Under the pieces are notes generated by a model, which was given only the letters and a program-made list of their open reading frames with translations, was not told where the DNA came from and made no database searches. Made by a program: the position numbers and the translations under genes. From NCBI GenBank assembly GCA_027307235.1, contig DAHUXH010000018.1:1-46540 (forward strand): DNA of 46,540 nucleotides. The letters are read 5' to 3'. The stretch comes from Vulcanimicrobiota bacterium (GTDB taxonomy: Bacteria > Vulcanimicrobiota > Vulcanimicrobiia > Vulcanimicrobiales > Vulcanimicrobiaceae). Positions 29,107-34,005 of this stretch are shown piece by piece; the first letter of the stretch is position 1, and the number at the start of each line of letters is the position of its first letter.

Positions 29107-32100
29107 CTACGGGCGCTTCGATTGCAGCAGGGCTTGCGCCTCTGTGACGTTGGTCGCCGCCGCGAGGGCGACGTGGACGTGAGCGGATGCGCGCGCGAAG
29201 GTGAACTGGACGATCGCGGCGCCGCGCGTGCAGCGTATCTCTTCACGAGCGAGCGCGCCGACGGCCCAGGTGACGAGCAGCGCCCGGTGCCGGCTCGGGT
29301 AGAAGATGCCGAAACCCAACGGCGAGTCGAGCGATTGCGTGTCGCCGAGCGTGCAGGTGTGCGGCGTATCGGTCAGGAGCACATCGTTCTCAGCGCGCGC
29401 GAAGCCGGAGATGTCGACGAGTTGCTCGGTGCTGCGCTCGTCGCGCGGCGTCATCTGCAGATCGGCATCGATCGACGATCCATCCGGCGCGAGCGCGAGC
29501 GTGCGTGAGAACCGCGCACCGCCGAACGGAAGATCGGGAGCATCGTAGATGCAGCTCACGCGCTGCGGTGCAGGCTGCGTGCAGGCGTACGCGCGATTGA
29601 AGGTCCCGGCATCGAGCGGATGCGTGTAGGCGGCGATGTAGTCGCGCGCCGACGGTGCGGGCGGAGCGGAAACGCCGTCGCGAAAGAGACCGATCGACGT
29701 GGCAACGTTGAAAGCCGGCGTGAGCGCCGGGTCGACGAACGCAAATGCGCGCGCACCCGCCCGCGGCGACAGCGCAAGCATGAGGTTCGCTCCGCGCAAA
29801 CGCACGGTATGGCGCTCGGGTGCAAGCGGTGCGGGCGGTGCGAGCGCCGATTCGACGAACGCTTGCGAATGTGGCGCGGCAAGTATACGAAACACCGCAC
29901 CGCGCGGCGGAACGGTCAGCGACGGAAGATAGGTGCGTGCGCGCCCCAAATTCACCCATCGGCCGGTAACGACACGCGGTTGTGCCGACGGATTGATGAT
30001 GTCGATCGCGCCGTGGGTCTGTGCGTCATCGACCAGGAGCGCCGAGTCGCGTGGTTCATGCAACGCCGCGACGGCGTCCAGCGCGGTTTCGATGGACGGA
30101 AAGATGCGCGTGCGGGCCATGATGCGCGCGATCTGCGCGCGGGCTTGAGGAAGAAGCACGCGGCCGCCGCCGTCTGGGACGACGAGCGCGCTGATGCCGT
30201 CGAGTTCGGCCGGATCGCCGAAGCGCAGATCGAAGATGCTGCAGCGCACGTTCGCGGCGCGGCACTGCGCCAGCGCGCCGGTTGTCGTGGCGGCGATCGC
30301 GGCGACATCGGCGTTGGAGATGCTCGCCGGATCGTACGCACCGAGCGTCCATGCGATCGCGACGTCGAAGCGCGGATGCAGCGTTGCAAGCCACGAACCG
30401 CGCTCGGCGATCAGTTCACCGAATGCTTGCGTCGGAAAAAAGCGCGGTTGCCGGGTTCCATTGCTGCCGAATGCCGCGTCCCACGCGTAGCTTGCGTTCG
30501 CCCACGGCGCTTCCCAACCAGCCGGATTCCAGGTGTCTTGCACGGGGAAATTCACGATTCCGTGGACGCCGAGCTGGAGAAAGCGATGCAGTGCCAAGGT
30601 GGTGTTGCTCGGATCGGCCGGGCGGGGCCGTGCCTCGTCGGCGCCTTGCAGCCAACCGGCCTGAAATTCACTCACCATGGCGGGCACGCGCGTTTGCGAA
30701 CCGACCATCAATGTCGAGAGATCGATCTGCGCAAGGTCGTGATCGCCGATACGATACGCGTCGCTCTGATACCAATTTCCCCATGCCCACACCGGCGAAT
30801 CCGCGGTCTCTTTTTGTTGATACGTGTTGATGAACAGCGGCACACGTGCGCCGACGCCGGTGCGCACGGTTGTCGCCAGCCACTCGATGTAGGTGCGCCA
30901 ATGCGGCGCGGGCCAGGTGTCGTTGTCGATGTACGCGCCTTGATCGTCGTCGAGCGCAATCGCGATCACGTCGTGTGCGACCGGCGCGAACTCGGCGAAG
31001 ACCCGCGCGAGCCAGCGCGACGCATACGTGAGATGCGTGGGGTTCGCCAACCATTGCGCCGCCGCAGCATCGGCGTGCGCGTTTTGCAGCGTGGCCGTCG
31101 CCGGGTAGCGGCCCTCAAGAATGTCGTGCAACGGCATGTCGTACTCCGGCCGCTGCAACAGCCACGCCGGGTAGCCGCCGTTGCGCCATTCGTTGCGAAT
31201 GACGGGTCCAGGACGCAGAATGATTTTCAATCCCGCCGCATGGATCGCGCGCAGCAGACCTTCAAGATCGCGCCGCGGATCGGTGCGTCCGGTGAAATCG
31301 AAGTCACCGTCGGAGAGTTCGTGCCAGTTCCATGGAACGTAGAGATCGATCGTGTTGACGTGCAGCTCGGTGCGATACCGCGTGAGCCAATAGCTCCACT
31401 GTTCGCGTGGAATCCGTTCGTAGAAGAAGGCCGCGCCGTAGACGAAGAACGGCCGCCCGTCCACCTCGAACACCGCGTGGCCGCGATCGTTCACGATGCG
31501 CGACGTCCCCCACCCCTCGCCAGCCCGAGCGGCCGCAGGCGCGATCAGCACGCTGACGACGAGCGCGGCCGCAAGCGCGAATGGCCACCAGCGCCGCGCG
31601 CGCGCGGTGACGAGAAAGGCGAGCGCACCGGCGCCGAGCCACGCGACCCCGAACGCGATTGCGTATGCACCGGTGCAGACAAACGCAACGAGCCAACCTG
31701 ACGCCGCGACCAGTGCCGGCAGCGGAAAGAACGGCATGGCGTACGGCGCCCTTCCCAAACGTGCGCGCAACACGCACACCGCGACCACCTGCAATATTCC
31801 TTGCACGAGCACGATGCCCGCCGTCAAGACGGCGATCACTTGATCGAGCGTAAAATACGATGCGATCAGCGAGACGATGCCGATGGCGAGCAACGCGACG
31901 TGCGGACACGACGTGCGCGGATCGACCCGCCCGAAGATCGAAAAGAACGCACCGTCGCGCGCGGCCGCGAACGGAATGCGCGCGAAGCCGAGCAGGTTGC
32001 CGTACACCGACGCAAAGGCCGTGAGCAGGACCAGCAGCGTGACGATCACCGCCGCGCCATGGCCCCATGCGGATTGCGCAATGACTGATGCGAGATACTG

Positions 32101-32907
32101 CGAGACCGGAGCGTGCGGATCGATCAATGCTTTCCACGGCACAGCCGCGAGCACGCCGAGTTGAAGCGCGACGTAGAGTCCCGCGACCAGCACCACAGAC
32201 GTGACGATTGCGCGCGGAATCGTGCGGGTCGCATTGCGCACTTCATCGCCGAGCAGCGCCACGTCGGCGTACCCGGCGTAGTCGTAGAGGGTGACGTAGA
32301 GCGCCGCGCCGATCGCCGCGAAGATGCCGAGGCCGTGCGGCAGCGCGGCGCCCGAGAAGTCACCCCACCGCGCAAGCCGCGCGGCGGGCAATGAAGCGGC
32401 GATGGTGACGAGCAGCGTTCCGACGGCGAGCAATCCGAGCACGACGCTCATCGCGGCGATGCGATCGACGCGCCGGTAGAGCGCCGCGATGCAGACGACG
32501 CCGCATGCGATGCACACCGCAAAATGCAGCATCGGCGATGCGCCGATCGCGGGAACGAGATAGGCGGCGTAATCGGCGAAGCCGATGTAGCCGCTTGCCA
32601 GCAACAGCGGCGCGTAGAGCAAGAACTGCCAATTGAAAAGGAACGCGGCGGCACGTCCGAGTTCGCCGGCGCCGAACGCCTCGCGCAAGAAGACGTACGT
32701 TCCGCCCGAACCGGGGTAGCGCGACGACAGTTCGGCCCACACCAACCCGTCGCAGAGCGCGATTCCCGCGCCAAGCAGCCATGCTCCGAGCGCAAGCATT
32801 CCTGGTAGATGGGCAAGCACGAGCGGAATCGTGATGAGCGGACCAATGCCGATCATCGTAATGACGTTGATCGCGATCGCACCGCGCAGGCCAATGCCGC
32901 GTATCAC
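29107..32907 (-). CDS. APC-superfamily permease fused to a GH35-like glycosidase
   Basis: 1266 residues in one frame. Residues 1–437 are an amino-acid/polyamine permease with about 12 helices (IAINVITMIGIGPLITIP, YPGSGGTYVFLREAFG). A further hydrophobic segment (441–462) ends APAAARAGE, like a membrane anchor or cleavage site. From 465 the chain is a GH35-type domain: FFYERIPREQWSYW, VNTIDLYVPWNWHE, IILRPGPVIRNEW (563–574). The nucleophile Glu is kept (SEFQAGW, about 747), but the acid/base motif ENEYG reads DDDQG (653–657). No standard start lies near the junction; the nearest Met is in the permease (391). GTG start with AGAGG. Confidence 0.88.
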   Translation of the reverse strand: MIRGIGLRGAIAINVITMIGIGPLITIPLVLAHLPGMLALGAWLLGAGIALCDGLVWAELSSRYPGSGGTYVFLREAFGAGELGRAAAFLFNWQFLLYAPLLLASGYIGFADYAAYLVPAIGASPMLHFAVCIACGVVCIAALYRRVDRIAAMSVVLGLLAVGTLLVTIAASLPAARLARWGDFSGAALPHGLGIFAAIGAALYVTLYDYAGYADVALLGDEVRNATRTIPRAIVTSVVLVAGLYVALQLGVLAAVPWKALIDPHAPVSQYLASVIAQSAWGHGAAVIVTLLVLLTAFASVYGNLLGFARIPFAAARDGAFFSIFGRVDPRTSCPHVALLAIGIVSLIASYFTLDQVIAVLTAGIVLVQGILQVVAVCVLRARLGRAPYAMPFFPLPALVAASGWLVAFVCTGAYAIAFGVAWLGAGALAFLVTARARRWWPFALAAALVVSVLIAPAAARAGEGWGTSRIVNDRGHAVFEVDGRPFFVYGAAFFYERIPREQWSYWLTRYRTELHVNTIDLYVPWNWHELSDGDFDFTGRTDPRRDLEGLLRAIHAAGLKIILRPGPVIRNEWRNGGYPAWLLQRPEYDMPLHDILEGRYPATATLQNAHADAAAAQWLANPTHLTYASRWLARVFAEFAPVAHDVIAIALDDDQGAYIDNDTWPAPHWRTYIEWLATTVRTGVGARVPLFINTYQQKETADSPVWAWGNWYQSDAYRIGDHDLAQIDLSTLMVGSQTRVPAMVSEFQAGWLQGADEARPRPADPSNTTLALHRFLQLGVHGIVNFPVQDTWNPAGWEAPWANASYAWDAAFGSNGTRQPRFFPTQAFGELIAERGSWLATLHPRFDVAIAWTLGAYDPASISNADVAAIAATTTGALAQCRAANVRCSIFDLRFGDPAELDGISALVVPDGGGRVLLPQARAQIARIMARTRIFPSIETALDAVAALHEPRDSALLVDDAQTHGAIDIINPSAQPRVVTGRWVNLGRARTYLPSLTVPPRGAVFRILAAPHSQAFVESALAPPAPLAPERHTVRLRGANLMLALSPRAGARAFAFVDPALTPAFNVATSIGLFRDGVSAPPAPSARDYIAAYTHPLDAGTFNRAYACTQPAPQRVSCIYDAPDLPFGGARFSRTLALAPDGSSIDADLQMTPRDERSTEQLVDISGFARAENDVLLTDTPHTCTLGDTQSLDSPLGFGIFYPSRHRALLVTWAVGALAREEIRCTRGAAIVQFTFARASAHVHVALAAATNVTEAQALLQSKRP

Positions 32908-32967: not shown

Positions 32968-34005
32968 ATGGCACAGTCGGACATCGCGCAGTTGCTGCGC
33001 ATCGAGGGAGATCTTCGCGTCGAGTGGATCGAGAGCGACGCGCTGCGGAACAATGCGTACGGCGACCCGCACCGCCGTCCGATCGCGGTCTACACGCCGC
33101 CCGGCTACGACCCCGGCGGCTCAACGCGTTATCCGGTGCTCTATCTCCTCCACGGGTACACCGGCGACGCGGTCGCGCTGCTGGCGGCTCGTCCGTGGGA
33201 GGTCAACGCGGTTCAGTGGATCGATCGTTTGATTGGCGAACGCCGCATGCCGTCCGCGTTGCTTGCCATCGTTGACGGATTCACGCGCCTCGGCGGATCG
33301 CAGTACGTGAACTCGATGCAGAACGGACGGTACGCCGATTACGTCGTGAACGACGTCATCGGACACGTCGATCGCACCTTTCGAACGATCGCGCGCGAAG
33401 GCGGGCGCGCCGTGCTTGGGAAATCGTCGGGCGGATTCGGCGCGCTGCATCTGTCGATGGAATCGCCCGGAACCTTCTGCGCATGTGCTTCGCATAGCGG
33501 CGACTCGTATTTTCGCGGCGCTCTCGTGCCCATGTTTCGCGAAGCCGCGCGCATCCTCGAACGATACGGCGGAGATATTGCAGCATTCGTCGAGGGTTTC
33601 GAGAAGAAGCCCAAACGTCCGCAACCGGAATACACGACGATGGAGATGCTCGGTTATGCCGCCGCCTATACACCGCGCAGCGCCGCCGCCTTCGACGTCG
33701 AGTTGCCGTTCGACCGAGAGACCGGCGAGTTGCTCGACGACGTGTTCGCTCGTTGGCTGGCCTTCGATCCGGTCGAACGCGTGCATGCGCGCTGCGCGGA
33801 ACTGAGCCGCCTGCGCCTGCGTTACCTCGATTGCGGCCGGCGCGACGAGTATGGGCTCGACATCGGCGCCCGCATCCTCGCGCAGCGCATGCGCTCGCTG
33901 GGCTTGGACGTGCTGCACGAGGAATTCGACGACGACCATCGCAACGTCGGCTACCGATACGAACGCTCTCTTCCGGCCCTCGCGGCAGTCCTGGATACAC
34001 GATGA
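32968..34005 (+). CDS. Alpha/beta-hydrolase esterase (esterase D / feruloyl esterase-like)
   Basis: About 345 residues. The N-terminal strands RPIAVYTPPGYDPGG and PVLYLLHGYTGD, and the nucleophile elbow GKSSGGFGAL, are those of the esterase D/PHB-depolymerase-like group. The likely acid and histidine are in RDEYGLD and DDDHRNVGYRY. ATG 32968 is chosen; GTG 32962 is also in frame. It is divergent from the permease–glycosidase gene with only 60 bases between, so a link to carbohydrate deacylation is possible but inferred. Confidence 0.85.
   Translation: MAQSDIAQLLRIEGDLRVEWIESDALRNNAYGDPHRRPIAVYTPPGYDPGGSTRYPVLYLLHGYTGDAVALLAARPWEVNAVQWIDRLIGERRMPSALLAIVDGFTRLGGSQYVNSMQNGRYADYVVNDVIGHVDRTFRTIAREGGRAVLGKSSGGFGALHLSMESPGTFCACASHSGDSYFRGALVPMFREAARILERYGGDIAAFVEGFEKKPKRPQPEYTTMEMLGYAAAYTPRSAAAFDVELPFDRETGELLDDVFARWLAFDPVERVHARCAELSRLRLRYLDCGRRDEYGLDIGARILAQRMRSLGLDVLHEEFDDDHRNVGYRYERSLPALAAVLDTR

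Follow-up and report, generated by a model that had tools for sequence, protein, structure and literature searches.

In the stretch analyzed here (the window, a 46,540-nt contig, DAHUXH010000018.1, of a Vulcanimicrobiota bacterium), the minus-strand frame at 29107-32907 encodes a full 12-helix LAT-type APC permease, then a 13th hydrophobic segment, then a GH35-like glycosidase. This fusion is real and not an artefact. The whole is best explained, although we hold this only tentatively and at slightly less than even confidence, as a LAT-type permease fused to an exo-glucosaminidase-like enzyme through an internal cleavable signal peptide and serving the release and uptake of amino sugars. From one start codon, the gene would give the permease followed by an enzyme that ends outside the inner membrane, with the enzyme's former signal peptide acting as the 13th membrane segment and carrying the enzyme across. 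Signal peptidase I would probably cut between A462 and G463, leaving the two proteins in a one-to-one ratio. The enzyme would most likely remove a 2-amino sugar of the glucosamine type from a periplasmic glycoside; the mechanism would be a retaining one in which E747 acts as nucleophile and an aspartate, D655, unusually takes the acid/base role. The released amino sugar, or a closely related derivative, would most likely be imported by the permease. Cleavage, activity, substrate and transport direction are the steps that we infer in this scheme.

The frame has no stop over 1266 aa and starts with GTG. Residues 1-439 (31591-32907; this and all other features of the gene lie on the minus strand) form the permease, with 12 predicted helices, a Pfam AA_permease_2 match over residues 9-450 (E 8e-33) and Foldseek matches in agreement. 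A hydropathy scan places a 13th segment at 440-458, following a basic loop, ARARR, and by the positive-inside rule this loop puts the enzyme half outside the membrane, in line with the earlier sequence-only reading of this DNA. The predicted internal signal peptide occupies residues 440-462 (31522-31590) and ends in A460-R461-A462. It is followed by a GH35-like TIM barrel, residues about 469-850 (30358-31503), with a Glyco_hydro_35 match at residues 481-589 (E 1.6e-30), and by accessory C-terminal domains drawn from the model (residues 851-1266, 29110-30357) that carry the invariant Cys882 and Cys889. AlphaFold modelled both halves well, the full-length model spanning residues 1-1190. Pfam, hydropathy and AlphaFold thus agree with the original description of a single stop-free gene joining a 12-helix APC permease, an extra hydrophobic segment and a GH35-like domain.

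That reading had also asked whether related genomes encode the same full-length architecture, and they do. In a search of the phylum, 49 of the 99 genomes that belong to the window's Eremiobacterota (WPS-2, Vulcanimicrobiota) family have a single open frame over both halves; the halves lie at separate places in 23 genomes, 13 have the enzyme only, 6 the permease only and 8 neither, though some of these non-fused cases reflect contig ends or gaps. Public assemblies supplied about 50 fused loci, some on contigs >1 Mb. The genomes are metagenome-assembled, and an assembly or sequencing artefact could in principle delete a stop codon between two genes. We consider such an artefact exceedingly improbable, because the same open frame recurs in 49 genomes and about 50 loci from several assemblies, the contigs >1 Mb included, and so is not a local error; a sequencing error or frameshift at the junction is ruled out on the same ground. 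Neither outcome that had been named in advance as fatal, a sequencing error or a consistent split of the halves among relatives, was found. In close pairs, the ratio of nonsynonymous to synonymous substitution rates is 0.07-0.36 for the junction, 0.04-0.15 for the permease and 0.06-0.11 for the enzyme; by this measure, the junction is under purifying selection. One genome (G102) carries two different fused copies, on contigs C137 and C47, with a contamination estimate of 8%. A Rhodospirillales origin for two loci (L042, L046) was rejected: their match statistics are those of the same-family genomes G007 and G014, and the labels therefore look wrong.

The original reading was mistaken in seeing no ATG, GTG or TTG close to the junction: in-frame GTG codons occur at 31551, 31494, 31473 and 31464. 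None is start-like: a start at 31551 would truncate the hydrophobic segment, and such codons differ in place from relative to relative, with none conserved, so that none is a credible start. An internal start yielding two proteins was rejected for this reason. Most standalone permeases terminate at or just past a WPF motif, and the standalone enzyme begins with its own signal-peptide-like segment. By this sequence comparison, the extra segment of the fusion is the signal peptide of the standalone enzyme, retained between the two halves. In 39 of 43 distinct fused proteins, which are related to one another, the junction segment closes with A-x-A and has Pro or Gly at -4 to -7, the pattern of an internal signal peptide as in FbcH-like precursors; shuffled junctions have the motif in 15.9 +/- 3.0 cases, and 0 of 5000 shuffles reach 39. 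The sequence and length of the junction vary, yet positions -3 and -1 remain Ala. Signal peptidase I can thus probably cut between A462 and G463.

The enzyme had been thought to be tethered to the transporter. This was not established: the conserved signal peptidase I site at the junction implies that the enzyme may be cut free, leaving the product in two parts. A precedent is FbcH, the cytochrome b-c1 precursor of Bradyrhizobium, in which a membrane protein and an exported protein are joined in one chain by a cleaved internal signal peptide. The proteins are unrelated to those described here, and cleavage is proven for FbcH whereas it is only predicted for the fused protein.

The enzyme half represents a conserved and uncharacterised subfamily of GH35-like proteins that is probably active. 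Its model has a mean predicted local distance difference test score (pLDDT) of 84.8 and eight barrel strands, and its best Foldseek matches are the exo-beta-D-glucosaminidases 8oug, 5gsm and 5gsl. The Pfam Glyco_hydro_35 cut-off is passed (107 bits vs 27), with coverage of only profile positions 3-106 of 319. The Glu of the motif EFQAGW at the end of beta-7 (E747, 30667-30669, located by alignment and the secondary structure of the model) is invariant and is the expected nucleophile. At the end of beta-4, in the invariant motif LDDDQ, the acid/base position is Asp (D655, 30943-30945) in all aligned sequences with coverage of the site, from fused and unfused genes alike and also in an acidobacterial homolog; GH35 has Glu there. 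Instead of the catalytic Glu pair of GH35 there is thus Glu747 with Asp655, and by that measure the enzyme half is not a standard GH35 member. A decayed enzyme was rejected as an explanation because the active-site motifs are invariant.

The closest comparison is with the GlmA-type exo-beta-D-glucosaminidases (5gsm, 5gsl, 8oug; PMC6566704), the best match to the enzyme half in both fold and sequence, at only 13-15% identity across the full structural alignment. In a profile search, LDDD paired with IDDE of a Pyrococcus GlmA; the segment concerned is a weak second match, collinear with a strong first one. GlmA itself uses a Glu as acid/base, and the Asp just ahead of it binds the glucosamine amino group (PMC6566704). 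The two share the preceding Asp (D654 here) and the Glu at beta-7, whereas in the fused protein the acid/base Glu is replaced by Asp and the enzyme is secreted and joined to a permease. The score against the GlmA equivalog model, NCBIfam NF041127, is 107.9 bits vs a cut-off of 1500. The GH2 exo-glucosaminidase CsxA provides a precedent for an Asp acid/base.

The permease half is LAT-like by sequence and by fold, with BasC, xCT, LAT1 and y+LAT1 as its relatives and a Foldseek TM-score by target of 0.83 against BasC. It shares with LAT-type APC permeases (BasC 6f2g/9h76; the SLC7 light chains LAT1, y+LAT1 and xCT) the fold, the AA_permease_2 match, the 12 helices and the GxG in transmembrane segment 1 (TM1), and differs from them in its C-terminal enzyme, in an invariant Asp209 in the TM6 site, and in that its unfused orthologs sit among genes of amino-sugar type. 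The TM6 motif Y208-D209-Y210-x-G212-Y213 (32269-32286), the expected substrate site, is invariant in 59 close copies, fused and separate; Asp209 becomes Ala or Asn in distant paralogs. A distant family of the phylum includes large genomes (G134, G137 and G138; loci L108 and L109) that encode a standalone permease, 40-41% identical, with Asn at the Asp209 position; no related enzyme scored above threshold in them.

The SLC7-SLC3 heteromeric transporters of animals (with 4F2hc or rBAT; PMC8537225) likewise combine an APC permease with an external ectodomain that has a glycosidase fold and a single membrane helix, and the order and predicted topology of the fused protein agree with those of a type II SLC3 subunit. 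In contrast to that pair, there is here one chain in place of two, the ectodomain is GH35-like and not of GH13 type, the active-site motifs are invariant, and a likely signal peptidase cleavage motif lies at the junction. By analogy, the fused protein may work like an SLC7-SLC3 pair, but it does not belong to that group. If the chain stays whole, it would be a single-polypeptide counterpart of the heteromeric amino acid transporters, its ectodomain held on one extra helix and serving substrate capture, stability or trafficking. The kinship of the permease half to the SLC7 light chains, the type II topology and the retention of the fused state in 49 genomes all speak for such an arrangement; on the other side stand the signal peptidase I motif directly after the segment, a modelled junction helix of only 15 residues (441-455) with an unstructured linker (pLDDT <50 at 452-464), the separate halves in 23 genomes, and an ectodomain that is GH35-like, not GH13, and on balance we regard a permanently whole chain as doubtful. 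A more specific version, an independently arisen single-chain counterpart in which a LAT-type amino-sugar importer is fed directly by a built-in exo-glucosaminidase on the outer face, seems to us rather unlikely.

For the substrate, the loci of unfused permeases are the most informative. A two-domain SIS gene adjoins the unfused permease in 7 of 24 loci, six times co-oriented at a distance of 8-37 bp and once tail to tail, where the chance of such adjacency is about 0.001 per genome. An eighth case (L107) belongs to another family of the same class. The best models for this SIS neighbour are the isomerase half of GlmS and then NagB-II glucosamine-6-phosphate deaminase, all below cut-offs; against NCBIfam NF046059 (NagB-II) it scores 98-114 bits vs 430, with the GlmS isomerase half scoring higher. 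Two of the SIS-permease loci also encode a GH20 hexosaminidase (L116, PF00728 E 1.5e-111; L114, a homologous frame), and several unfused-permease loci have a large protein resembling an outer-membrane receptor (Oar type), judged by a CarboxypepD_reg domain and its length. Taken together, this neighbourhood of SIS, GH20 and receptor genes looks like one of amino-sugar use. SIS genes of the GlmS/NagB-II type were seen beside unfused permeases at L079, L104, L107, L112, L114 and L116 and also in genomes G013, G069 and G105. In a genus designated g9 (L099, L101, L117), copies of the unfused permease have the glucosaminyl-hopanoid genes HpnI and HpnK no more than about 2-4 kb away.

These neighbours, read as deaminase-like SIS and hexosaminidase genes, and the GlmA-like Asp-Asp motif of the enzyme are two independent hints in favor of the amino-sugar capture that had been proposed from the sequence. 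In the window's own genome, we found no clear amino-sugar catabolic enzyme. Several further points weigh against the proposed scheme. That genome has no NagB-II-like gene above threshold and no convincing NagB, and its GH20 match is weak; its PF01182 match resembles 6-phosphogluconolactonase and lies beside an OpcA-like gene, and its two-domain SIS match has the length of GlmS. No amino-sugar genes were present in the inspected flanks of the fused loci. About three well-assembled genomes encode the enzyme but no close permease, and two encode the permease but no enzyme. With Asp at the acid/base position, the enzyme could be weakly active or have a different activity. The A-x-A statistics come from sequences that are not independent, and a control window after TM11 is likewise enriched (21 vs 7.5 in shuffles) because that stretch is conserved; a second control window, after TM12, overlaps the junction itself. 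If glucosamine is imported in the window's organism, it may feed cell-wall or lipid synthesis and not catabolism, or the substrate may differ.

A different substrate is suggested by the frlA-frlB pair of E. coli, where an APC permease can carry a sugar-amine compound and FrlB is an SIS-domain deglycase. By analogy, the fused pair might handle a glycosylated or glycated amine other than glucosamine, such as a fructosamine, a compound of the glucoselysine type or a glycosylated amino acid. The APC permease FrlA is related (NF008466 E 9e-18), the GlmS-like SIS proteins include GfrE, a glucoselysine-6-phosphate deglycase, and searches of the window's genome turned up no enzyme of glucosamine catabolism. 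The frl operon has the same combination of APC permease and SIS-domain enzyme for a sugar-amine compound, without an enzyme fusion, but the SIS neighbour of the unfused permeases has far better scores with the GlmS and NagB-II models than with FrlB, two loci carry the GH20 hexosaminidase, and no FrlD-type kinase was seen, although no systematic search for one was made. We judge a frl-like substrate unlikely.

Enzyme-only loci share flanks with fused loci: cystathionine beta-synthase-type and gamma-lyase-type genes, a divergent esterase, aroA and a methyltransferase gene are common to both. The flanks of the fused loci also include a tRNA-Leu. At least 9 changes between fused and separate are required on the enzyme tree and at least 5 on the permease tree; both counts lean upward, as some of the 'separate' labels, a few in number, stand for contig ends. 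The need for several changes indicates that fusion or fission occurred more than once, and in genus g9 the fused and standalone permeases fall in different clades, so that partners seem to have been exchanged as well. On the sequence evidence, the gene fusion appears to be long-standing in one Eremiobacterota family.

This history also bears on whether the halves have unrelated jobs, the fusion being a tolerated read-through of neighbouring genes and the permease an ordinary amino acid transporter. The repeated changes and partner exchange would suit such an account, as would the enzyme-only and permease-only genomes, the co-occurrence counts among unfused genomes (23 both, 13 enzyme only, 6 permease only, 8 neither), which are too weak for a claim of linkage, and the family models, which label the permease merely a general amino acid transporter. 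Set against these are the maintenance of the fusion across many genera, the purifying selection on the junction and the sugar-enzyme neighbourhood of the unfused permeases, and we consider unrelated functions quite improbable.

The esterase adjoining the fused gene (PF00756, E 3e-17; window 32968-34005, plus strand) is divergently oriented and has no evident signal peptide. PF00756 esterases occur in 75 of the fetched loci, nearly always beside the fused or enzyme-only gene, and in L110 beside the permease alone. The enzyme-only copies of one genus (L054-L060, L069, L070, L081) have a shortened N-terminus with Pro or charged residues after the hydrophobic segment, which makes a poor cleavage site, so that membrane anchoring may be possible there.

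As the original reading supposed, the literature searched contained no comparable fusion of a transporter with a glycosidase; on Eremiobacterota enzymes, transporter fusions and FbcH it likewise yielded nothing direct. We know of no APC-family importer of amino sugars. If our explanation is true, the fused protein would be a second case, independent of the SLC7-SLC3 transporters, in which a LAT-type permease is paired with a glycosidase fold; what that fold means in SLC7-SLC3 is itself an open question (PMC8537225). Nature supplies about 50 fused versions, and 23 genomes have the halves apart, so the value of the physical link can be tested directly in this family, and the invariant Asp at the acid/base position marks an uncharacterised subfamily of GH35-like enzymes.
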